A stretch of DNA of 64,000 bases from Aphrocallistes beatrix (taxonomy: Eukaryota > Porifera > Hexactinellida > Sceptrulophora > Aphrocallistidae): NCBI GenBank assembly GCA_963281255.1, contig OY725500.1, forward strand, positions 62,001 to 126,000, in the 5' to 3' direction. A model generated the notes under the pieces. That model was not told the DNA's origin and did not search any database. It saw only the letters and a program-made list of their open reading frames with translations. Shown in pieces: positions 4,108 to 64,000 of the stretch. Every line of letters begins with the position of its first letter. Position 1 is the stretch's first letter. Position numbers and translations under genes: made by a program.

Positions 4108-5796
4108 TGATGGCACTTACTTGATATATTATTAAACTCAATTACTATGTTCAACTCTATTCAAATAAATTCAATTCAGATTCAAAAGGAATTCCTGAAT
4201 CTCGTTAATACTAACCGGACTGATAGCATTCTAACTCGTGTGTTGCTTGGGAGTCAGTCTGGGCGACACAGCCATTTAACGTAAACAAAAATTTATCAAA
4301 AGTAAACAAAAATTTATCATATCGATCTGAAAATATGATATTCGAAATCTACACCCCTAAAAACCCCATGTCAACCGTTGGAAGCTAGTTTCTAGCATAA
4401 TTTTCAAAATTCGTCAAATCGTGTGAAAATATGTATATAAAGGTGTGAAAATATACAAATAACCTTTTTAACTGCCATACACTATAATATATAATTGAGA
4501 CATTTATATAAGTTATTGCTTTGAAGTATTAATTACAATTACAGCCTACAATATTGTCGTATAATGATTTCTATTGTGAGAGTGAAGCCGTACATAGTAT
4601 TGTATAGAAAAGGTGTGAAAAATTGTTTTCCATTTTTTTGCAGAGGTGTGAAAATTTCGCTTAGATCTTAGAACTTAATCGTAGATTCATCATTTGACAC
4701 CTACATGCCAATTTTCGTATCTCTACGACTTGCCAATTCTTCAATCAATTCGGACAAACAAACAAAGAAAAGTATATAAGATTTGGAATTTTTACATCAT
4801 TAAGATTCTGAAATAGTAAGAAAAAACGATAAGGATAAACCGGAGTGAGAAAAAACCGGTTTCGACTATGATTTGTTTACAATTGTGCCACTTGAAATGA
4901 CGGCAATAATTGCCACATGAATCCCCAGCCACTTCTCCCCCCTCCCTTCTCTCCTCTCCCGTATACCAGCGCAATCCAAAAGATTTTACTCGATTCAATA
5001 TTAGAAATGCACACCATATGACGACTAAGATATCGTCGGTAGTTCATATCTCTTCTTCAGTCTAAGATTAGGAATATTAATCTTAATCAGGAGTACTTGA
5101 GTCATATGAGTGCTCCGACGCCAGGGTACAATCTATTTATAGAAATGCTTATACCGGATATGTCGCTACAAAAGGTCGTAACCATTGAGCGAGAGTAGAA
5201 CAAACTATGATTTCTAAATAAATTGAACAGTCAATCATCTCCCTTTTCACTGGAAAAATATTTATAATCGAGTATTTAAGTTAAGCAATATTATAGGAAT
5301 ATATACATATATATATCACATGCTGGTAGAAATATTTTCAGATTACAGCGTACTGAGGTAATTATTCAGGTTTCAAAGAATCAGATAATATTTGCTGTGG
5401 AATTTCTATACATTTCTAAGCAGTCATTAGCATGTGACTGCTTCTGGAGTATCGACCAATTCTTTTGATTGAAATAGAAATACAGTTTGGAGATTGCCTT
5501 TTGAGGAAATAGCTTCATTGCATACCTCAGCTATTTCAGGATGATGCAAAGATATTACTTTTTTCTATTTATATACGCACTCTACGTACCCTAGTAACCA
5601 TATGACAAACGGGTATGTGTATATAACCACAGCAAATTATCCTAATTCAACAGAGATGACGCAGATACAATTCAGTTAATCACAGATGTGGTTGCGAACT
5701 ACGCAAATTTGCAACTGACGAGTCACTTATCCCAAATAATGATTCATCTCTTTAAACGATATTAGACAAAGTAATCTGGTCAAACGGAGATGACTA
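4108..5796. other. Intergenic DNA with an interspersed repeat fragment
   Basis: No gene recognised. Bases about 4590-4780 match two partial copies at 22985-23285. Shared landmarks are GGTGTGAAAATTTC, TTAGATCTT, CACCTACATG and CAATTCGGACAAACAAAC. The rest is AT-rich with no coding signal. Confidence 0.6.
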
Positions 5797-5945
5797 CAGT
5801 AAGTCTTCTCTAATTGTCCACTTCTCTAATTGTCCATTTGCCAAAATTGGAGTACTATGTGCATTTTGCACACACACTTCGAATTCTCTAATTGTTCACT
5901 TAGGATCCCATTGCCCAATGGTGGACAATTAGAGAGGACTTAGTG
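5797..5945. mobile_element. Foldback MITE, CAGTAAGTCYTCTCTAATTG ends
   Basis: Left end CAGTAAGTCTTCTCTAATTG and the right end inverted match over about 24 bases. TA lies on each side. CAGT...ACTG-like ends with TA duplication fit the pogo/Tc1-mariner group. The sequence TCTCTAATTGTCCA occurs repeatedly inside. Confidence 0.6.
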
Positions 5946-7740
5946 TATTCATACTTTGCTGCAGCCACCTCCAAACACGGCTAGGTTTGTCTTCACGGTT
6001 TGTCGCAATGGCGTTGAAGAATGCCTTTAACCTAAGACTACCGAAATGTACCACAGAGGTACAACTTTATGGCTTCTTTCACATTGAAAATGGCTGGAGA
6101 CATCCGCGATATCGCGACTTTTCGATAATCTAGGGTTAAAGCCACCACTCCATCGCACTGAGTGTCCGCCAATCAATTTGCAGCTCATAGCTCCAGAAGA
6201 TGGTTCCGTTTTGTCCAATGAAATTTATTTATTTATCTATTTCGCTATCATCTCTTGTCAGCAGAACGTGCACACATCATTATCTGCTCAGCAGTAAGCC
6301 AGTCATAAGAAATAGCATTAGCTGTACGACCTTATAGTAGCCAGTAACCACTGTGGCTAGAATAGTGGCTACTGGCTTATAAGTGCGTAACTAGGAGCAC
6401 ATTTTGGATATATTATTAGATTTTGTAAGGTGTAAAAATATCAAAATTACCACGTGGATAATGTAATGGCAAATGTTGAAAATTTTAATTTCAATTCAAA
6501 GGCTATCGATTGAAATTCAGAGAATGGAGCAGAGGTTCTTAAAGTTGAGGGAGGAGCAGCAAAGGAAGATAGACTATTCTGTCATTTTATATTATATCTA
6601 CGCATGAAGTAATCAATTTTAATTTGTATTACCAGGGTGCATACCCCTTAAGATTAGCAAGTGTGCTTGAGAATCACTCCTCCTAGCAACCCAATATTTC
6701 AAAGGAATTTGAACTCTGTAACTGGATATATTTGGAATAAAAAGTATATTTAGAAAGGGAAGAAGTGATATGTTAGTACAACTCCCTGTGCTTACTCCGA
6801 ACCACTCGTGACAAGGAATAAATAACTCATCGGAGAGATTAGCTGTTTAATCAGAGTTAGCTGATTTACAGTGACGAAGGGCAAAATTAAATATTTGGAT
6901 ACTTATTATGCAACCATATCCTGTGTCGTACTACGATTGATTAGTCTGTAGCATAGAAGATATTAGTCAATTTGGGTAAATTAAAATAATTACAACACTC
7001 GCAGTAATACAATGTAAGAACAACAAATAAGAATGAGAGGAAAGTTGGCAAAATTAAGATTAGTTTCCAATAGCAAGAACTCTATTAGACATCAGGGATT
7101 TCTTTTTAAACAGAGCTCAACTAATCAGATTATCAAGCGTTTAATCAATCATTCCCACTCTGTGCCATTTTATTTGAGCCAAGCTTGTCCCAGATATTCC
7201 AGACGAATTCCCGGGGATTTCCAGTATAGGCGCCTTTGATGCTCCAATGTCGATATACAGCTATTGTTGTTCCTAGGGAAAAGAAAATCTCGGACTATAG
7301 TGGAATAAATGTAATTGGGATATATATTTAGACTCAATTAACATAATTTTGGGGCTTAGTTGTAACCTATAAGTTTGTGTGGAGTCCTGCCATAAGTGAC
7401 AATATTCCAAGAATCGATTCGGATAAGTGACAATATTCCAAGAATCGATTCGGACAAATGCATGCGCCTCATACTCTAGCAAATCTTGCAACCATGGACG
7501 CAATAAGCAATATTATTTTCGTCATAATGTGTCAATTATATTAGCCGATCAGAATACAGGGACTAGCTGTATTTGTGTTGCATATTATTTTAACACCTTT
7601 AACATGAATTAAGAAATGAGATCTCAACGGTTGAAAAGTTGTATATTTTGATCAAATACTGAAAATTTTCCACTCGTAATTTTCAGGGTGATGCTGATAT
7701 TAGAACAGACATAGCGTCCATTTCAAATCAGATCTAAAAT
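5946..7740. other. Gene-free intergenic stretch
   Basis: Open frames are short and unlike any family I know. A small inverted repeat around 6282-6384 (AGTAAGCCAGT ... ACTGGCTTAT) looks like another foldback element. A 36-base direct repeat around 7394-7455 contains AGTGACAATATTCCAAG twice. Confidence 0.5.
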
Positions 7741-35371: not shown

Positions 35372-35924
35372 CACCTCTCTCCCTCTCAATCTCACCTTTG
35401 TATTTTAATCGGTTTTTACTCGCAAAGGTGACAACCCGGAAAAATTTGAGCTTATTTTTATTTGTGTTTATAATCCAATGTGTGACTCTTCTCTTCAGAT
35501 GTGCCTGTACCATATTGTCAGTGTATCGTGTCAATAATAGACCTGTGTTATCCTTGTTTACTTTGGTTTGTGTATTTTATTGATGTGAATTGTTTACCTA
35601 ATTTATTTAAAACAATGAGTATTCTACAGAAAATGTCGGTCACAATGGAAATTTGTTTATTTTCTTTCCTTCCAAATTGCGATAAACAGAAGTGTGATAT
35701 TAGTATTTTCGACACTATACTGATACACTATAGTACTGTATAGTGACACAAATTGTGTCGCTATACAGAGACACAATTATAATATTGCAATGGAGTAGGA
35801 TTGTTAATTTAACAATTCGTAACCTGATCTCTGCACTGGTGCACTGTTCCAATATAAAATAGCCTTACGAGACTCCTGTTCATTCACAATACTATCCTAT
35901 TAGCAATATTACGAGTTGAGTAGA
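35372..35924. other. ARHGAP39 3' region and NHL gene promoter region
   Basis: AT-rich, no further gene. The 44 bases before the NHL start (from GACTCCTGTTCATTCACAAT) are the left boundary of a duplicated unit repeated at 39338. Confidence 0.6.
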
Positions 35925-37169
35925 ATGGCCGTAGCGTTTCCCATCCCACAGCCCGTGGACCCAGTGGAGGTCCACATCAACCACTTCTTCGACCGCGTGG
36001 TCGCGTGTGCACAGCACAGAAGAGCGACACTCCTGAATGCCGCGCACGAGAAGAGACAGGAAATGGCAGCTAGAGTGACAGAGCGCGAACGAAGCGAGCA
36101 GCAACTTCTGTCCGCGAGAGCTGACATAGAGCGACACCTCAGAGAGAACTTCCTTCGAGAGACACAGGAGCGCCTCCTAGCAGAGATAGAGCAGAAACTG
36201 GAAGTGTTACGTGCTCCTGTCCCCGACACGTATCTGGTGTTTCGAGGCGAGTGTGAACAACTGGAGCAGCTGATTGAAGGTGTGGGAGAGATCTACGAGG
36301 AAGAGGTACCAGTTGTCCCCCGCTACCACGATATGAGACCCACAGTAGCAGTTGCGAAGAATGGTAAATCTCCTGGTCAACTCTGGGGTCCTCATGGTGT
36401 CGCTATAGACCCAGCCACTAACCACATATATGTCGCCGAGGGAGATTTTAATCCTAATTTCGCGAGAGTGTCTAAATTTTCAGAGTCGGGCGAGTACCTA
36501 AACAGCTACACTCACGAGCACATGGAAGCATTATGGGGTATCGCCATACAAGGAAACAACCTGTATTTAACGGACTGGGGAGTACACGCTGTGTTCCACT
36601 TGAATATAGAGACTGACTTCCGTCTGGTGGCTAGGCTAGGGAGCTTTGGGTCTGGTATCGGACAGTTTAATGCACCCCGCCAACTCTCCATCTCTACCAA
36701 TGGAGATGTGTACATAGCTGATAGACACAACCACAGAATCCAAATCCTGGATAGTTCCCTACACCCGATTAGAGAGGTAACACATCCATCCATGCACGAG
36801 CCTTATGACGTAAAGTTAACGACAGAAGAAATGTACGTACTTAGTTCAGAAGATTCTACTTGTGTGCATGTATTTACTCATACCGGACACAAGACACGCT
36901 CTCTAATCACATGTGGTTTAGGAATGCAGGTATATAAAACCTACTTCTTCTATCTCGATATCAAAAGGAATTTAATTATCAGCGATTACAATGCTGACCA
37001 GATCAGAATATTCTCAAATGAAGGAGATCTCCTCCACACGATAGGGGAACCTGGAAACCAAGTAGGAATGTTTCATTATCCTACTGGATTAGCTCTGACT
37101 TCAAATCTGAACTTAGTTACTGTGTCCCATAATAATGACTACAGATTTCAAATATTTTCTTCTCTATAA
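35925..37169 (+). CDS. TRIM-like NHL-repeat protein without RING or B-box, tandem copy 1
   Basis: Single exon, 414 residues from ATG 35925 (MAVAFPIPQPVDPVEVH). Residues about 15-135 form a charged coiled coil (HEKRQEMAARVTERERSEQQ ... RETQERLLAEIEQKLEVLR). From about 150 to the end there are NHL repeats: GQLWGPHGVAIDPATNHIYV, GNNLYLTDWG, QFNAPRQLSISTNGDVYIAD, and MFHYPTGLALTSNLNLVTV. The arrangement is the coiled-coil plus NHL half of TRIM2/3/32/71-type proteins. With no RING it has no visible ubiquitin-ligase domain, so it would be a binding scaffold via the NHL propeller. The nearly identical upstream 44 bp and N-terminus in copy 2 show recent tandem duplication. Confidence 0.85.
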   Translation: MAVAFPIPQPVDPVEVHINHFFDRVVACAQHRRATLLNAAHEKRQEMAARVTERERSEQQLLSARADIERHLRENFLRETQERLLAEIEQKLEVLRAPVPDTYLVFRGECEQLEQLIEGVGEIYEEEVPVVPRYHDMRPTVAVAKNGKSPGQLWGPHGVAIDPATNHIYVAEGDFNPNFARVSKFSESGEYLNSYTHEHMEALWGIAIQGNNLYLTDWGVHAVFHLNIETDFRLVARLGSFGSGIGQFNAPRQLSISTNGDVYIADRHNHRIQILDSSLHPIREVTHPSMHEPYDVKLTTEEMYVLSSEDSTCVHVFTHTGHKTRSLITCGLGMQVYKTYFFYLDIKRNLIISDYNADQIRIFSNEGDLLHTIGEPGNQVGMFHYPTGLALTSNLNLVTVSHNNDYRFQIFSSL

Positions 37170-38971: not shown

Positions 38972-39391
38972 CATCATTTTAGATTGATGTACATTTATAT
39001 ACATTAGTTGATTATTTGTTGGTGTTTAATGTATTACCATCATTTTGTGATACGTTTTTAGCTTATTACCACGTTTAATATAAAAGAAAGATTCAAAACG
39101 CCGTGAACTACGTACAGATATATAATGCAAACGTTTTGAATACAATTAGTAAATGAATTTCAACAGGAAAAGTTGATTAATCAAATAAAATTAATATAAT
39201 AATAAAAATCTGATGTTAATCAAAAAATCTTTTCTGATTTTAAAAACCCCCATTATTTTTCCGGCGGGCGGCAGTGAGTTATACATTGTTTTAACTCTTT
39301 TAAAGCTACCCATAGTATTTATTATTTCACCATTTACGACTCCTGTTCATTCACAATACTATCCTATTAGCAATATTACGAGTTGAGTAGA
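38972..39391. other. Spacer up to NHL copy 2
   Basis: AT-rich, no gene. The duplicated upstream block of the NHL gene starts at about 39338. Confidence 0.6.
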
Positions 39392-40636
39392 ATGGCCGTA
39401 GCGTTTCCCGCCCCACAGCCCGTGGACCCAGTGGAGGTCCACATCAACCACTTCTTCGACCGCGTGGTCGCGTGTGCACAGCACAGAAGAGCGACACTCC
39501 TGAATGCCGCGCACGAGAAGAGACAGGAAATGGCAGTTAGAGTGCCAGAACGCGAACGCAGCGAGCAGCAACTTCTGTCCGCGAGAGCTGAGATAGAGCG
39601 ACACCTCAGAGAGAACTTCCTTCGAGAGACACAGGAGCAACTCCTAGCAGAGATAGAGCAGAAACTGGAAGTGTTACGTGCTCCTGTCCCCGACACGTAT
39701 CTGGTGTTTCTCGGCGAGTGTGAACAGCTGGAGCAGCTGATTGAAGGTGTGGGAGAGATCTACGAGGAAGAGGTACCAGTTGTCCCCCGCTACCGCGATA
39801 TGAGACCCACAGTAGCAGTTGCGAAGGAAGGTAAATATCCTGGTGAACTCTGGTGTCCTCGTGGTGTCGCTATAGACCCAGCCACCAACCACATATATGT
39901 CGCTGAGGGAGGTAGAGATCCTAATTTCGGGAGAGTGTCTATATTTTCAGAGTCGGGCGAGTTCCTAAACAGCTACACTCACGAGCACATGGAATCATTA
40001 TGGGGTATCGCCTTACAAGGAAACAACCTGTATGTAACAGACAGGGAGGTACACGCTGTGTTCCACTTGAAGATAGAGACTGACTTCCGTCTGGTGGCTA
40101 GACTAGGGAGCAGAGGGTCTGATGTCGGAAAGTTTGATGCACCACGCCAACTCTCCATCTCTACCAATGGAGATGTGTACATAGCTGATAGAGACAACGA
40201 CAGAATCCAAATCCTAGATAGCTCCCTACACCCGATTAGAGAGGTAGCACATCCATCCATGCACAAGCCTTGTGACGTAAAATTAACGACAGAAGAAATT
40301 TATGTACTTACTCCAGATGATTCTCCTTATGTGCATGAATTTACTTATACCGGACACAAGACACGTTCTCTAATCACACGTGGTGAAGGAATGCAGCCAA
40401 CTCTACCCCTCTTCTTCTGTCTCGACACCAAAAAGAATTTTATTATCAGCGATTACTTTGCTCACCAGATCAGAATATTCTCAAATGAAGGAGATCTCCT
40501 CCACACGATAGGAGAAGAAGGACACCAAGTAGGAATGTTTTATGGTCCTCCTGGAATAGCTCTGACTTCAAATCTAAACTTAGTTACTGTGTCCGATAAT
40601 AATAACTACGGACTTCAAATATTTTCTTCTCTATAA
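39392..40636 (+). CDS. TRIM-like NHL-repeat protein without RING or B-box, tandem copy 2
   Basis: Single exon, 414 residues, same length and layout as copy 1. The coiled-coil half differs from copy 1 at fewer than ten positions by eye. The NHL half has many substitutions, e.g. GELWCPRGVAI for GQLWGPHGVAI, GSRGSDVGKFDAPRQ for GSFGSGIGQFNAPRQ, YVLTPDDSPYVHEF for YVLSSEDSTCVHVF. The frame is intact. The 3' flank also matches copy 1 for about 150 bases (GTATTTATATTTAAACC, CACTTCCATATGGAAC), so the duplicated unit includes both flanks. Likely paralogous scaffolds with different ligands; partner unknown. Confidence 0.85.
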   Translation: MAVAFPAPQPVDPVEVHINHFFDRVVACAQHRRATLLNAAHEKRQEMAVRVPERERSEQQLLSARAEIERHLRENFLRETQEQLLAEIEQKLEVLRAPVPDTYLVFLGECEQLEQLIEGVGEIYEEEVPVVPRYRDMRPTVAVAKEGKYPGELWCPRGVAIDPATNHIYVAEGGRDPNFGRVSIFSESGEFLNSYTHEHMESLWGIALQGNNLYVTDREVHAVFHLKIETDFRLVARLGSRGSDVGKFDAPRQLSISTNGDVYIADRDNDRIQILDSSLHPIREVAHPSMHKPCDVKLTTEEIYVLTPDDSPYVHEFTYTGHKTRSLITRGEGMQPTLPLFFCLDTKKNFIISDYFAHQIRIFSNEGDLLHTIGEEGHQVGMFYGPPGIALTSNLNLVTVSDNNNYGLQIFSSL

Positions 40637-53928: not shown

Positions 53929-54693
53929 TCATAGCTCTCTGTTAGTTTTCTTGTATTGCCTTTCAGCTGCTTGCAAAGCTTTGTTGATGAAGTAATCTTT
54001 CAGATTTTTTTCGATTTCTTTGGGTAGAACCATTTCTGTGCCCTCGGCATGCTCAAAGTTAATAAAGTACAAATCTAATTTTGACTTCTTTTCTGGATCA
54101 CTGGGCGCCAAATTGAATGTTACTAAGGTGCCAGAGAGAATGTAGTTCATTTCTTCGTCCTGCTTATCTATTGCAATCCTTATGTAACCGAATTTTCCCT
54201 CTTCCGAACCTCCAACATTCATTTCACGAATTACTTTTTTCGTTTCCGTCATTGCGTCTGCCTGTTTTAGAACTTCGAGTTCATCCAAAGGAATTTTATA
54301 AAACTTTCCCATCGCGTCTACGACTCCCTTCCAGTGTTCTACCTTGATCCCCTTTCCAGAATCGTGGAACACTTTCTCGTGGTACTTCCTGAATTTAATC
54401 TGGTTTATTTCATTCTGTATCGTTATTATTTTTTCGTAATCTGCTCTCTCATCCAGATTTAAGAATACCTCTACGAGTGATTCCGTGCTTTCTGGATCTG
54501 TAGCATTAGACTGAATATGGATGTCACCAGGTTCAATAGTTGCATCTCCAAACTTTAAACTCTCCTCAAACATATCTGAAAAACTTTGTGAGGACCTCGA
54601 GAAGAGTCCCACTTTAACGTTGTAGAATAAACTGACAGCTGTCAGTGCTAAGAGCACAGTTGTGAGTGATAAAAGCCCAATGTAGACTCGCAT
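53929..54693 (-). CDS. Unrecognised cysteine-free secreted/membrane-anchored family, copy 1
   Basis: I chose Met 54693 (MRVYIGLLSL) because all three copies begin M-R-V at the same place; the frame is open 20 codons further up to 54753. The N-terminus has a hydrophobic segment (LLSLTTVLLALTAVSLFY), either signal peptide or type II anchor. After a variable spacer of about 55 residues, longer than in the other copies, comes a conserved region of about 165 residues. It holds IKFRKYHEKVFHDSGKGI, GKFYKIP, GKFGYIRIAIDK, LDLYFINFE, and DYFINKALQAAERQY. There are no cysteines and no family I know. The alternation of short hydrophobic strands and polar turns suggests an alpha/beta fold. Function unknown. 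Confidence 0.75.
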   Translation of the reverse strand: MRVYIGLLSLTTVLLALTAVSLFYNVKVGLFSRSSQSFSDMFEESLKFGDATIEPGDIHIQSNATDPESTESLVEVFLNLDERADYEKIITIQNEINQIKFRKYHEKVFHDSGKGIKVEHWKGVVDAMGKFYKIPLDELEVLKQADAMTETKKVIREMNVGGSEEGKFGYIRIAIDKQDEEMNYILSGTLVTFNLAPSDPEKKSKLDLYFINFEHAEGTEMVLPKEIEKNLKDYFINKALQAAERQYKKTNREL

Positions 54694-54753
54694 TCTTTCC
54701 TGTGTTGATGTTTGATGATATTTTCTTTTAAACTCCTTATTAACTAGAATCAA

Positions 54754-55220
54754 AATTAAAAATACAAAGTATTTTAGAGAACTTCTAAAGCCACGAATTA
54801 TATGAGTTTTCTGAGGCGATTTTAATATTTCAACCCATTTTAGATTAATTTCGATAAAATATTTTGTGGCATCTATTTTTAAAGTTTAAATAATCTTAGA
54901 TATCAGAACCAAAATCGCCTGAATATTAATTTTAAATTGTAGCTGAAAAGCGACTTACACAAATGAAGATTTTATCCCGAAAATAATTTTGAATTTTCAC
55001 AAACATGTGAGGGCATATCCGTATAGTTTATTATCGCACCTTCCTATATCATTTCGATAGAGTACCTACGTGTACATAAATGAATCACACGAAAATCTTA
55101 TTTTTACTTGAAAAACCTAAATACCTCTAAGGTAGCACATCTAACATAGAAACATATACATTTGCAGGTAATTACTTTTGAGCAAATTAATCCTGTCAGG
55201 CTACAACTAGGTCGAATGTT
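54754..55220. other. Spacer between copies 1 and 2
   Basis: AT-rich, no gene or repeat recognised. Confidence 0.5.
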
Positions 55221-55862
55221 CTAGAATTCTTCATTGTGGGATCTCTGCAAGACTTTCCCGTATTTCTTCTCGGCTGCTACCAGGGCTTTGTTAATGAAGT
55301 ACTCCTTCAAGTTCTCTTCCATTTGCTTGGGAAGGATCGCTTCTGTCTCCTCAACACTTTCGAATTTCATGAAATAGAGGTCCAGAGTTGTCTTCTTGTC
55401 GGGCTGAGCTGGCGCGAGAGTGAATTTTATCTGCGTCCCAGCGAGAATGTAGCTCAGATCTCCTCTTTCATCTTTCTCGATCGCAATACGCATGTAGCCG
55501 AAGTTACCAGGCTCCTTGCCTCCGATCTCAATGGTGTGTACATTCTTTTCTGTTTCATCCATATCTTCTGCGGTTTTCAACAGCTCAACTCCAGTTTGAG
55601 GTATCTTATACAATCTCCCCATTACTTCTGCAATATTCCCCCATTTGCCTTCCTTAATTCCCTTCCCTGAATCATGGAACACATTTTCGCTATACTTTCG
55701 AAATTGAATTTCTTTAATTTTTTCCTGTGTCTCGATCAGTTTCTGTGAATCTGGAGAATCGACTAAATCGAAGAACTTTTTGATCAGCGTGCCTGCAAGG
55801 CCACCGTCCAAGGTAGGAATGAAGCTAATAGCTAGAATAACGAATGCTAGATTGACTCGCAT
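55221..55862 (-). CDS. Unrecognised cysteine-free secreted family, copy 2
   Basis: Single exon of 213 residues. The N-terminus MRVNLAFVILAISFIPTLDGG looks like a cleavable signal peptide. The conserved region has IKEIQFRKYSENVFHDSGKG, MGRLYKIPQTG, EDMDETEK, GGKEPGNFGYMRIAIEKD, LSYILAGTQIKFTLAP, LDLYFMKFE and EYFINKALVAAEKKYGK. It ends HNEEF. No cysteine. This copy keeps every conserved block and can serve as the reference of the family. It is closer to copy 3 than to copy 1. Role unknown. Confidence 0.78.
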   Translation of the reverse strand: MRVNLAFVILAISFIPTLDGGLAGTLIKKFFDLVDSPDSQKLIETQEKIKEIQFRKYSENVFHDSGKGIKEGKWGNIAEVMGRLYKIPQTGVELLKTAEDMDETEKNVHTIEIGGKEPGNFGYMRIAIEKDERGDLSYILAGTQIKFTLAPAQPDKKTTLDLYFMKFESVEETEAILPKQMEENLKEYFINKALVAAEKKYGKVLQRSHNEEF

Positions 55863-56827
55863 TTCTTTCTAAAATGAAGTTAAATCATAGTTTAATTAAA
55901 TCACTAAGTTGCGCTATATGGACTGGCAATGGCCGCCATTAACTACGTACATGATGGAGCATAATGTATGTTGATAACAGAGGAGTTGTATCGATTTGTA
56001 AATGTTAATACCAAGCATTTCCATAAAATTTCCTAGTCTTGCATAATTGTATTCGCGAATATGATACTTTCCTAAACAGCAGCCTAGCTTCCACAAGCTC
56101 TTAATAAATTGAGGAGAGAAGTGGAGAACTTATGGTCTAGTTACTCTAGTTATGGTATCAATGTTATTTTAAACAATTTCCTTAACGAGATCGATATAAA
56201 ACTACAAATTCGAGTAGGACACATTACCATCACTTTGCCATACAGTCTGCCTATATATCAGTTGTGTATGAGTAGATACCATGCAGTAAGACTCAGTGGA
56301 CTTTCATATTCTTACAATACACATGATTCTAACTCTCAAGCTATTAATAGAAGGGGTATGTTTTCAGAAGTTCTTGTTTGTGTATAAGGAGATTACAAAT
56401 ATGATATAATTATTAATTATTAATTAATAAGTTATCCCCAAAACAACATTGTATATTTGGGAAAGTATACAAATTATATTTTTTAAGAATCAGTGGTACG
56501 ATGTTGCATTTCAGTATTCATAAATCCACCTTGTAGAAATAGCAGTCACACAACAGGCTATTTGTTCTATCCTGTTATTGTTTACATTTACATATATGAG
56601 TCTCAAACGATCCTGAAATTGATCCTCAATTCTCTCCACATATGTATCTTTTTGCGTTGATTCTCCAATGTTTGCATCCTTTTCTGAATTGTTTACTACC
56701 ACTAAGAAACTCCCTTAATAGAATAACAAACTTGGCCCATACTTCATCTTACACAAACACACACACAAAATATACAATATAGCCTGACTGAGCTTATTAG
56801 GTTATTGACACATCAAGATTCAACACA
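55863..56827. other. Spacer between copies 2 and 3, upstream of copy 2
   Basis: Nearly 1 kb, AT-rich, no gene seen. An ORF at 56109-56387 (+) has no family resemblance. The HSE-like array at 56828 ends the region. Confidence 0.5.
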
Positions 56828-57003
56828 TATTCTAGAATGTTCTGGAATGTTCTAGAATGTTCTAGAATGTTCTAGAATATTCTAGAATGTTCTAGAATAT
56901 TCTAGAATGTTCTAGAATGTTCTAGAATGTTCTAGAATATTCTAGAATGTTCTAGAATGTTCTAGAATGTTCTAGAATGTTCTGGAATGTTCTAGAATAT
57001 TCT
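56828..57003. repeat. TTCTAGAATG tandem array, heat-shock-element-like
   Basis: About 17 units of the 10-mer TTCTAGAATG, with variants TTCTGGAATG and TTCTAGAATA. Each unit contains TTCnnGAA, and the junctions give GAATGTTC, so the array is a continuous series of alternating TTC/GAA triplets spaced by two bases, exactly the HSF recognition pattern. It begins directly after the stop codon of copy 3 and lies about 970 bp upstream of copy 2. Confidence 0.9.
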
Positions 57004-57633
57004 CTAAGGAATCCCTTTCGATTCCCCGTATCTCCTCTTAGCAGAGGACAGGGCTTTGTTGAGGAAGTACTCCTCCAGGTTCTGTTCCATCTCCTTGGAG
57101 AGGACGGCTTCTGTCTCGACCTTTCCATTCCTGTCAGGCGGCATTGGCGCCAAATTGAACTTAATTTGGGTTCCAGCTAGAATGTAGCTCAGATCTCCGT
57201 TTTCTTTCTCTATCGCGATACGCATGTACCCGAACCTTCCCGGCTCTCTACCTCCTATGTCGATGTTATAAACGGTTTTTTCAGTTTCAGCCATATCCTT
57301 TGCCTGTTCCAACATCTGAACTCCATCCCGAGGTATCCCGTACAGTTTCCCCATAGCAGTAACCACCCCCTTCCAGTTGTGCTCCTGAATTCCCGTCCCT
57401 GCGTCTTGAAATACATTCTCGCTGTACTTCTGAAATTGAATTTCCTTCACTGCATTTTCTGTTTTTAATAACTTCACTTTGTCTGCCTGGACTTCTAGAC
57501 TTAAGAACTTATTTATGAGTGTCTGAGACAGCATTTTATTCTTGTTGGGTGGTTTATAATGGTTTAGCAATATTCCTATAAGAATCGCCACCAAGCCAAC
57601 TACTATGATAGCTAAAAGAGGAAATACTCGCAT
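57004..57633 (-). CDS. Unrecognised cysteine-free secreted/membrane-anchored family, copy 3
   Basis: I prefer Met 57633 (MRVFPLLAIIVVGLVAILIG) by alignment to the other copies; the frame opens at 57645. The N-terminal hydrophobic stretch of about 20 residues is followed by HYKPPNKNK, so it may be a type II anchor. Conserved blocks: VKEIQFQKYSENVFQDAGTG, MGKLYGIPRDG, GREPGRFGYMRIAIEKE, LSYILAGTQIKFNLAP, EEYFLNKALSSAKRRYGE. An in-frame loss of about 11 residues removes the LDLYF.(K/N)FE block found in the other two. Whether this copy still folds is unclear. Its stop codon adjoins the HSE-like array. Confidence 0.72.
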   Translation of the reverse strand: MRVFPLLAIIVVGLVAILIGILLNHYKPPNKNKMLSQTLINKFLSLEVQADKVKLLKTENAVKEIQFQKYSENVFQDAGTGIQEHNWKGVVTAMGKLYGIPRDGVQMLEQAKDMAETEKTVYNIDIGGREPGRFGYMRIAIEKENGDLSYILAGTQIKFNLAPMPPDRNGKVETEAVLSKEMEQNLEEYFLNKALSSAKRRYGESKGIP

Positions 57634-57668
57634 CCTAACTACCAATGCTTACTTAAATATTTACCAAA

Positions 57669-57679
57669 TTTATATAAAC
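57669..57679 (-). promoter_or_regulatory. Possible TATA box of copy 3
   Basis: On the minus strand TTTATATAAAT stands about 36-46 bases before the Met at 57633. Position and sequence only. Confidence 0.35.
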
Positions 57680-57837
57680 TACTAGGCACCTAATTACCTT
57701 TTTATCAGATTCAGTCTGTTGAACCCTATCCTATACACGTCTATTATCAATCTTACTCATATACATCTATAAACCTTGTATTTATTATTTGAAATTAGCA
57801 GAATTATTTTAGGAATTAGCTCATAACTGCTATTAGC

Positions 57838-58335
57838 ATGTATCGCTTCTTCATTCTCCCAATCATCCTTCAATTTATATACTTTCACACCTTTTCACTT
57901 GCCAAGAAAGATAAATTCGACACAGCTTTCAACTGGCAACCCTACTCCAACTCCATAGAGACCGCCTCCTCCCTCCCTAGACCCATTCTCATCCTCTTCT
58001 ACGGGGAGAACTGCTTCGCTAGTAGCAGGTTCAAGAAGGAGATGGCGGGGTCCAAGGAGGTGGTGGAGCTCAGTGAGAGCTTCACTATGGTTAAGATCGA
58101 GAGGGGGGAGGACCCTGGGGTCCGGCGGTACAGGAAGGAAGGGATCTACTACCCCAGAGTCTACTTCATGTCCACAGAAGGGGCGCTCTTACAGGGAATT
58201 AACGGACAAGATCCAGAACACAAATTCTACTTCGCCACAGCTGAGGAACTTATTTCAGCGATGAGGAAGGTCTTAGAGTTCGTGGGCCTTCAAGGAAGCA
58301 AGGAAATGTTTGACATATACCGCGAGGAGTTCTAG
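57838..58335 (+). CDS. Thioredoxin-fold ER protein, AGR/TXNDC12-like
   Basis: Single exon, 165 residues. Signal peptide MYRFFILPIILQFIYFHTF plus SLA. The thioredoxin fold shows FNWQPYSNSIETA, PILILFYGENCFASSRFKKE, VELSESFTMVKIERGEDPG, IYYPRVYFMSTEGALLQGI and HKFYFATAEELISAMRKV. The layout and cis-Pro (YPRVYF) match AGR2/AGR3/TXNDC12. The active site is C-F-A-S, a CxxS form as in AGR2 rather than the CxxC of TXNDC12, so it could form mixed disulphides but not oxidise alone. It ends REEF, a KDEL-like ER-retention candidate with Phe for Leu. It is divergent from copy 3 of the unknown family, starts 205 bp apart. Confidence 0.8.
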   Translation: MYRFFILPIILQFIYFHTFSLAKKDKFDTAFNWQPYSNSIETASSLPRPILILFYGENCFASSRFKKEMAGSKEVVELSESFTMVKIERGEDPGVRRYRKEGIYYPRVYFMSTEGALLQGINGQDPEHKFYFATAEELISAMRKVLEFVGLQGSKEMFDIYREEF

Positions 58336-61097: not shown

Positions 61098-62276
61098 TTA
61101 ATAGAATTTAACTGAAGAATCAACAGCACACACAATAGTATTATTATTAGTTACTGCTATTCCATCAGGACATCCTCCACACTGAATGGAATGTATTAAC
61201 TGTCCTTCTGACGTAAATATTTGTATTGAGTTATCTTCTCTATCGCTAATTATAATATTACTAAACTGATCTAAACACAGAAACATTTGTGAAAACATTT
61301 CACTTTTCGCACTTATCACACTGTACAACAGATCAGCTGATTTAGAGAATACATACACATTATGAGAGCTATTTCCATCGAGTACAAATATTTTGTTTGA
61401 ATCAGTTTTTACATCACATGGAGATTCAAGCATTCCTTTTCCTATCTCTCTTAAATAGTGTAAATCTAAATTTAGAACTGCTATTCTATTATTCAAACAA
61501 TCTGCAACTAACACTTCATTCCTATCCACTGTTAGACCTCTAGGGCCACTAAGCACTCCTTCTACATTCTTATTCATAAACTTAAAATTGGATATTTGGA
61601 ATTTTAAGACTGAACCTGGTACCCAATCATTAACAAACGCCCATTTGTCACACAGTGCTATGTCATACGGATAAACTAGCTGTCCCTTACCGAATTCTGT
61701 TAAGAATTTGCCGTCTTTAGAGAATACTTGGACTCTGCTGTTGTCACTATCACAGACATAGATCTTCTCTCCCTCTACTCTGACACCATGAGGCAAATTG
61801 AACTCTCCTTTCTTGTTTCCTTCCTTCCCGATACTCCAAACAGGTTCCAGTTTGTCAAAGTAGAATCTTCTCACTTCCTGAACAGTTCTTATCCTCTCCA
61901 GCTGTTGCAGGAGAGATTGGAGATCTTCTGAGCTGAAGTGAGGGACAGGGATGGGAGTTGGTTGTTCAGCCTTTTTCAATTCTTCTTGTGTTCTGTGGAT
62001 ATTTTCTTCGTGGAATTTCAAATTTGGATTTTGATGGACATTCATACCTTCAAGCTGTTCGATCATCTGTTCCAACTCTTGGGCCTGTTTCTTCCTCAGA
62101 TCCTCCTTGCTCAGGTAGTCCTGCTTCAGATCGTTGAGTTGCTGGAGCAGCTCATCTCTTTTGACGGTCACTGCACTGATAATGGTGTCGAAGTATGTTC
62201 GGATTTCTTGTTCCACTCTTGAAAATGTGTCCAGTGGAATGTTGGTTGGATTTATTTGTGGGAATCTTGTCGCCAT
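61098..62276 (-). CDS. TRIM-like NHL-repeat protein, second tandem pair, copy 1
   Basis: Single exon of 392 residues starting MATRFPQINPTNIPLDTFSR. A coiled coil covers about residues 15-150 (VKRDELLQQLNDLKQDYLSK, RKKQAQELEQMIEQLEGMN, HRTQEELKKAEQ). NHL blades follow: GEFNLPHGVRVEGEKIYVCD, VYPYDIALCDKWAFV, LSGPRGLTVDRNEVLVADCL, LESPCDVKTDSNKIFVLD, and CPDGIAVTNNNTIVCAVD. No RING or B-box. Same plan as the 35.9-40.6 kb pair but only distantly similar, so the two pairs are old relatives. Presumably a non-ligase scaffold that binds RNA or protein through its propeller. TATA-like CATAAATACAAT (minus strand) stands 50 bp upstream. Confidence 0.85.
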   Translation of the reverse strand: MATRFPQINPTNIPLDTFSRVEQEIRTYFDTIISAVTVKRDELLQQLNDLKQDYLSKEDLRKKQAQELEQMIEQLEGMNVHQNPNLKFHEENIHRTQEELKKAEQPTPIPVPHFSSEDLQSLLQQLERIRTVQEVRRFYFDKLEPVWSIGKEGNKKGEFNLPHGVRVEGEKIYVCDSDNSRVQVFSKDGKFLTEFGKGQLVYPYDIALCDKWAFVNDWVPGSVLKFQISNFKFMNKNVEGVLSGPRGLTVDRNEVLVADCLNNRIAVLNLDLHYLREIGKGMLESPCDVKTDSNKIFVLDGNSSHNVYVFSKSADLLYSVISAKSEMFSQMFLCLDQFSNIIISDREDNSIQIFTSEGQLIHSIQCGGCPDGIAVTNNNTIVCAVDSSVKFY

Positions 62277-63415: not shown

Positions 63416-64000
63416 TTAATAGAATTTAATTGAATTATCAACAGCACACACAATAGTATTATTATTAGTTACTGCTATTCCCATAGGACATCCTCCACAC
63501 TGAATGGAATGTATTAACTGTCCTTCTGACGTAAATATTTGTATAGATTCATCTTCTCCGTTGCTAATTATAATATTACTAAACTGATCTAAACACAGAA
63601 ACTTTTGTGAGAATGTTTCTCTTTTCGCACTTATCATACTGTACAACAGATCAGCTGATTTAGAGAATACATACACATTATGAGAACTATTTTCATCAAC
63701 TACAAATATTTTGTTTGAATCAATTTTTACATCATGTGGATATTTAAGCACTCCTTTTCCTATCTCTCTTAAATAGTGTAAATCTAAATTTAGAACTGCT
63801 ATTCTGCGTCTATTACCATCTGCCACTAACACTTCATTCCTATCCACTGTCAGACCTCTAGGACTACTAAGCACTCCTTCTACACTCTTATTCATAAACT
63901 TAAAATTAGATATTTGGAATTTTAAGACTGTATTTGGTGCCCAATCACTTACAAACGCCCATTTATCACACAGTGCTATGTCATACGGATAAACTAGCTT
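63416..64000 (-). CDS. TRIM-like NHL-repeat protein, second tandem pair, copy 2 (5' end outside the window)
   Basis: The frame is open from the window edge to the stop at 63416, about 194 residues (KLVYPYDIALCDKWAFVSDW onward). It corresponds to the C-terminal half of the 61098 gene: LSSPRGLTVDRNEVLVADGN, LKYPHDVKIDSNKIFVVDEN, LDQFSNIIISNGEDESIQIF and CPMGIAVTNNNTIVCAVD. Substitutions are scattered, the reading frame is intact, and the last residues (KFY) are identical. The coiled-coil N-terminus lies beyond 64000. Confidence 0.83.
   Translation of the reverse strand, partial: KLVYPYDIALCDKWAFVSDWAPNTVLKFQISNFKFMNKSVEGVLSSPRGLTVDRNEVLVADGNRRRIAVLNLDLHYLREIGKGVLKYPHDVKIDSNKIFVVDENSSHNVYVFSKSADLLYSMISAKRETFSQKFLCLDQFSNIIISNGEDESIQIFTSEGQLIHSIQCGGCPMGIAVTNNNTIVCAVDNSIKFY

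Follow-up and report, generated by a model that had tools for sequence, protein, structure and literature searches.

The window analysed here is a stretch of 64,000 bp from the glass sponge Aphrocallistes beatrix (contig OY725500.1, positions 62,001 to 126,000), and it holds a tandem cluster of three related genes on the minus strand, beside which a gene for a thioredoxin-like protein lies in the opposite orientation (Table 1). A first-pass annotation, made from the letters alone, had described the cluster as three homologous, intronless genes with M-R-V starts, and this description proved correct. Indeed, all three are uninterrupted open reading frames (ORFs) beginning with M-R-V, and when the whole assembly, 100.5 Mb in 28 contigs, was searched with copy 2, copy 3 came up with an E-value of 2e-58 and copy 1 with 1e-56, far beyond chance; identity to copy 2 is 53% for copy 3 and 45% for copy 1. 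The span given for the cluster, 53929 to 57645, does contain the ORFs, but its upper end falls on a TTG that lies in frame before the ATG of copy 3, at 57633. None of the three proteins contains a cysteine, and each has between two and five histidines. An intronless state is ordinary in this lineage, since single-exon genes are common in Aphrocallistes vastus (12,409 single-exon transcripts tabulated for 19,578 genes, in an excerpt of PMC10282587). The same genome search revealed a fourth copy on contig 9, 88% identical to copy 2 and letter-for-letter the same as database protein P0001.

Table 1. Features of the cluster and of the rest of the window, numbered from the first base of the window.
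Feature	Position	Strand	Description
NHL-repeat ORFs	35916-37169, 39383-40636, 61098-62276, 63416-64000		repeat confirmed by Pfam for 61098-62276 only
Copy 1	53929..54693	minus	254 aa from the M-R-V start; conserved domain; C-terminal NREL (codons 53932-53943)
GAA/TTC/GAA motif	55214..55226	no strand	3 units; overlaps the copy 2 stop codon
Copy 2	55221..55862	minus	213 aa; N-terminus resembling a signal peptide; conserved domain; C-terminal NEEF (codons 55224-55235)
TTC/GAA array	56830..57003	no strand	174 bp; 10-bp unit repeated 17.4 times, forming 35 perfect alternating TTC/GAA units
Copy 3	57004..57633	minus	209 aa; strongly hydrophobic N-terminal anchor, by hydropathy; conserved domain; C-terminus KGIP, without KDEL-like tail
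Spacer between copy 3 and the AGR-like gene, start to start	57634..57837	no strand	204 bp; candidate two-way promoter
AGR2/TXNDC12-like gene	57838..58335	plus	165 aa, single exon; CFAS site; C-terminal REEF (codons 58321-58332)

The family is small. Among 5.8 billion proteins, 13 relatives were found with copy 2 as the query and 14 with the family alignment, for which the best 7,997 candidates were scored. One of them, P0013, belongs to another glass sponge, Oopsacas minuta, and P0007 comes from a transcriptome; we propose that the family may be restricted to glass sponges. As the annotation had stated, no described family is recognisable. In Pfam and NCBIfam nothing exceeded the curated cut-offs (the best hits below them were PF04869, E 0.019, in one of 16 alignment rows, and NF006593, E 0.013, in eight of 16), and among the PDB sequences the sole match was to a protein designed de novo (E 0.32). 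We therefore call the family undescribed in the sources searched, namely Pfam, NCBIfam, the PDB sequences, glass-sponge papers and text searches, which is not a claim about everything in print.

The three tandem copies are old paralogues under purifying selection. The ratio of nonsynonymous to synonymous substitution rates (dN/dS) was 0.15-0.28 by the NG86 method and 0.14-0.41 by YN00 for the computable pairs among the family copies; neither method returned a value when copy 1 was paired with copy 2 or copy 4. The age of the copies follows from a dS that is undefined or about 3 in the comparisons with copy 1, together with the existence elsewhere of close counterparts: in the tree, copy 1 pairs with P0014 (97.2% identical) and copy 3 with P0011 (95.2%). 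Copy 2 groups with P0001, P0002 and P0003, and the remaining nine relatives form one clade, in a tree with strong support at only four of its 14 inner branches, where a long-branch effect may account for the joining of copies 1 and 3. P0002, P0003, P0011 and P0014 lie on contigs of one identical size (2,021,315), so a near relative appears to carry the same cluster. More recent duplication is seen only in the copy-2 type (P0002/P0003 and the contig 9 copy), and the picture of a rapidly duplicating family must be given up. A fifth, strongly diverged relative (positions 5570-6300 of the contig 9 stretch examined) follows the contig 9 copy, first as an ORF of 117 aa (E 3e-4 to copy 2). Since later family pieces downstream of the ORF are split by stops, it would be either a pseudogene or an intron-bearing gene.

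The C-termini carry the main finding. Nine of the 17 family rows, copies 1 and 2 and seven of the 14 database relatives, end in XX[DE][FLM], which in the portion of PMC8276033 that cites Raykhel et al. is the pattern of human endoplasmic reticulum (ER) proteins. Besides the two tails given in Table 1, these seven relatives end in IKEL, NEEL, TKEL, RDEL, RSEL, RTEF and NREL. As background, 31 of the 1,962 frames of at least 20 aa in the six frames of the window have such an end; the binomial value for the enrichment is about 1e-12, which is overstated because the rows are related. Tails of this kind occur in three separate clades of the tree, and they are kept while the linker that joins them to the conserved helix varies from 4 to 11 residues (counted by eye in the alignment); it is therefore the end of the chain itself that is conserved. 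The calreticulin of this genome has KEEL at its end (the exon after those matched by Pfam was read by eye), and the human tails listed in PMC3500226 are KTEL for AGR2, QSEL for AGR3, KVEL for ERP27 and EDEL for TXNDC12. A terminal phenylalanine retains reporters less efficiently than leucine, and an HDEF peptide has been crystallised on the receptor, according to an excerpt of PMC7617889. Most of the readable members thus bear an ER-type tail. The proteins had been taken for extracellular ones; this is probably wrong for most members, and for copies 1 and 2 in particular residence in the ER is quite probable from their sequences. The lack of cysteine would also be less odd in a luminal binding or folding factor than in an exported protein.

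Entry into the secretory pathway is suggested by the N-termini. Against the customary hydropathy cut-offs, we judged them by the maximum over 19 residues, which is 3.1 in copy 3, 2.2 in copy 1 and 1.9 in copy 2, so that the hydrophobic starts noticed at first sight are real. The first reading had copy 1 anchored, copy 3 possibly so and copy 2 secreted. The start of copy 2 does look like a cleavable signal and copy 3 does appear anchored, but by hydropathy it is copy 3 that has the clearest membrane anchor of the three, and copy 1 is ambiguous between anchor and signal. One N-glycosylation sequon is present in the stalk of copy 1 and corresponds to one of the pair that P0014, its counterpart, carries.

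The structure prediction and fold search that the annotation had called for left the fold without a match. AlphaFold models of copy 2 and of P0005 (predicted local distance difference test scores of 71.8 and 75.2) show one and the same order of elements: helix-helix-strand-helix-helix-strand-strand-strand-long helix. The top Foldseek match of both was YwmB from Bacillus subtilis (PDB 2fpn, E 4e-4 and 8.5e-4), with template modelling scores (TM-scores) of 0.26-0.27 and root-mean-square deviations of 8.5-12. In a library of viral structures, the P0005 model had six matches at E of 0.001 or less, among them A0A650DA38 and a Hyperionvirus protein (TM-scores 0.44-0.49) and proteins of moumouvirus and Terrestrivirus (0.29-0.39, probability near 1), all uncharacterised; the giant-virus proteins (Hyperionvirus, moumouvirus, Terrestrivirus) have about 190-270 aa and as a group fit the predicted fold at a probability near 1, with TM-scores of 0.29-0.46. 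When viral contigs were scanned with the family alignment, no relative was confirmed, and we draw no conclusion from these matches. Copy 3 and P0011 lack about ten residues, the DLYFMKFE stretch, that the other full-sequence rows keep; the stretch lies where the model's confidence is lowest.

The gene that faces copy 3 head-to-head, 204 bp away, leads to the same reading as the tails. Its product matches Thioredoxin_7 in Pfam (E 3.5e-7), TXNDC12 (E 9e-14) and AGR2 (E 6e-6) among the PDB sequences, and the same two proteins in a profile search (3e-14 and 3e-10). With a single thioredoxin-like domain, a CxxS site and a KDEL-like tail, it has the sequence features of the AGR/TXNDC12 subfamily. 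In the alignment of this gene with its seven relatives, all eight rows end in [RH]E[DE]F and seven have CFAS, the eighth, P0019, being a fragment. Four of the seven relatives lie on contigs equal in size to contigs that bear the tandem family, from which we infer that they are the same contigs: P0017 with P0009, P0010 and P0012 (214,746), P0018 with P0006 (421,663), P0021 with P0005 (439,286) and P0019 with P0002, P0003, P0011 and P0014 (2,021,315). Because each of these contigs makes up only 0.3-3.3% of a glass-sponge genome of 61-80 Mb, chance sharing in all four cases is unlikely; the linkage is old, although as inheritance from one ancestor it would count as a single event. The 204 bp between the two starts contain one GACGTG, which we did not use as evidence.

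Altogether, we propose that the products of the tandem genes form an ER-luminal family, restricted to glass sponges, that works beside an AGR-type enzyme, and we give this statement as a whole a probability of about 0.5. Its parts differ in strength. Residence in the ER is likely; a functional pairing with the AGR-like enzyme comes a little short of even odds, and a chaperone-like action is tentative. The hydrophobic N-terminus would take each protein into the secretory pathway. The KDEL receptor would recognise the variable xxE(L/F) tail of the soluble members, copy 2 and probably copy 1, and bring them back to the ER, and copy 3 would be held by its N-terminal anchor, the tail having been dropped. 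In the ER, the cysteine-free alpha/beta domain could bind folding clients or a co-factor, and the AGR2/TXNDC12-like enzyme, with its thioredoxin fold, could act on the same cargo with its one reactive cysteine. We model this pairing, by analogy, on redox-inactive ERp27 and a disulfide isomerase. One may speculate further, with considerable doubt, that this is a folding module peculiar to glass sponges, in which an orphan cysteine-free client-binding domain evolved beside a single-cysteine AGR-type enzyme, with retrieval by an unusual variant of KDEL that ends in Phe, with soluble, tethered and Cys-tailed forms, and for clade-specific secretory cargo such as matrix or skeleton proteins.

Several observations weigh against an ER-luminal family of this kind. 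Six of the 15 readable rows are not KDEL-like, and P0012, which continues beyond the family domain, and P0013, a truncated model, are counted in the 17 although their tails are unreadable. Copy 3 and P0011 end in KGIP. P0004, P0007, P0009 and P0010 end instead in a TC....C tail with two cysteines, so that the absence of cysteine which had been ascribed to the family holds for the three copies and not for all their relatives. The NREL of copy 1 has an arginine at -3, where aspartate or glutamate is usual, and a control on the tails of protein disulfide isomerases found none of six thioredoxin-family stretches readable to the C-terminus. Signal peptides are judged by hydropathy as the sole basis. 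The fold matches in the PDB are weak, the shared contigs are recognised by their size, and three of the seven AGR-like relatives lie on contigs of other sizes (119,988; 17,739; 163,781).

Some of these observations would suit secreted or cell-surface proteins of defence or recognition, with copies 3 and 1 on the plasma membrane and the tails a coincidence. The hydrophobic N-termini, the cysteine-bearing tails of four relatives, the lack of a KDEL-like tail in copy 3 and the tandem arrangement in a restricted lineage all agree with such a role. We nevertheless find it unlikely, given nine tailed rows spread over three clades with variable linkers and a linked gene whose KDEL-like tails are present in every row; moreover, these genes evolve under purifying selection, and rapid change is not seen.

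A second alternative arises from the TTC/GAA array, which adjoins the copy 3 stop codon on its 3' side. A heat-shock element consists of alternating nGAAn units, the units recognised by heat-shock factor (HSF), and the array fits that pattern. The genes could then be a heat-shock-inducible chaperone family, in which HSF bound to the array drives copy 2, copy 3 or both under stress. Besides its perfect units, this idea has in its favour that the array has no second instance in the genome (up to 2 mismatches over 30 bases), and that even a 5-unit pattern is rare, with 11 other places against none forward and one reverse for a reversed-pattern control. An HSP70 gene (Pfam E 2e-253) has one of the 11 in front of it, 214 bp ahead of its start. 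However, the array stands 3' of copy 3 and 968 bp ahead of the copy 2 start; at the other 10 places no chaperone gene was recognised by eye among the printed ORFs, two of them sitting in repeats; and the 500 bp upstream of the contig 9 copy hold no 3-unit motif. Above all, the array can be explained by slippage. On the gene strand its unit reads TAGAACATTC, identical to the copy 2 stop codon with its flank, and at the same site the contig 9 copy has similar letters, TAGAACGTCC. It is therefore most likely, judging from these letters, that the array grew by slippage from a gene end, whatever binds there now, and the small motif at the end of copy 2 is likely to be the same kind of seed. Heat-shock control of a chaperone family thus seems rather improbable to us.

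The HSP70 gene itself (contig 16, 2893-5003 of the examined stretch) is single-exon and of cytosolic type, and its element is a perfect 5-unit heat-shock element of the TTCTAGAA type. Contigs 1 and 15 carry near-identical sequence around a TTCTTGAAAGTTCTAGAA motif, by eye an apparent dispersed repeat with a heat-shock-element-like motif. The identity of the tandem family as a small heat-shock protein (HSP20) was rejected, as the alpha-crystallin domain PF00011 matched none of the 16 alignment rows. A six-frame search of the whole genome for PF00011 also gave no candidate, although introns or divergence could hide one and the positive controls of the method were prokaryotic only; the absence of this family from a glass sponge would be notable, if true.

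That the proteins are a matrix or scaffold of the biosilica skeleton is very improbable. The family is secretory and, as far as found, confined to glass sponges, as such a protein would be; the three copies are nevertheless unlike the published silica proteins as these are described, and identity with one of them was rejected on composition. Least credible of all is a membrane-perturbing, pore-forming protein, an idea suggested by the order of helix hairpin and sheet, which recalls the fold of Cyt and volvatoxin A2.

The cluster is not the only tandem expansion in the window. Four single-exon ORFs with NHL repeats (beta-propellers) and coiled-coil N-termini form two similar pairs.

If the ER-luminal family is real, its last four residues can place an orphan family taken for secreted in the ER. 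Folding enzymes of the AGR branch each serve particular secreted cargoes in the ER; PMC10907643 describes AGR2 as a chaperone of mucins with a further role in tuning a stress sensor. If an AGR-like gene and an orphan ER-tagged family do form a conserved pair in glass sponges, they would show how cargo-specific folding machinery of its own arose in an early animal lineage, and the more speculative folding module would add a chaperone family outside every known fold class so used. Should the inference fail, the genes would be no more than an ordinary orphan family of one lineage.

Among the closest known systems is a homologue, the hypothetical protein LOD99_7555 of Oopsacas minuta (P0013), 61% identical over 71% of copy 2; its gene model differs by an extra N-terminus and a truncated C-terminus, and no function is assigned to it. 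YwmB, which we take to belong with the helix-grip folds in a SCOP-type grouping, is the best structural match, yet it and the helix-grip proteins do not amount to a confident fold match (TM-score 0.27 or less). Hexaxilin, perisilin and glassin are likewise secretory proteins of glass sponges, compared here by description; in the excerpts of PMC10772126 and PMC10282587 they have, respectively, six conserved cysteines, 12 cysteines with a CAP-like domain, and a histidine-rich composition, unlike the three copies. The neighbouring gene resembles AGR2, AGR3 and TXNDC12 (ERp18) in its length of about 165 aa, its signal-like N-terminus, its Thioredoxin_7 domain and its KDEL-like tail, and its CxxS site recalls the Cys-Pro-His-Ser of AGR2 and the Cys-Gln-Tyr-Ser of AGR3 (as excerpted from PMC3500226). 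It differs from them in the Cys-Phe-Ala-Ser site, the Phe-ending tail, the single exon and the linkage to the tandem family. As for the family, ERp27, a redox-inactive binding partner of PDIA3, is in the same excerpt an ER protein without CxxC that ends in KVEL and partners a disulfide isomerase; this is a working analogy only. ERp27 has two thioredoxin-fold domains. The tandem family differs in predicted topology, and no thioredoxin domain with a catalytic cysteine was found in it (no Pfam match over the cut-off, no cysteine in the three copies). A lineage-specific ER-resident factor beside a gene of the protein disulfide isomerase family is nonetheless a kind of thing that is already known.

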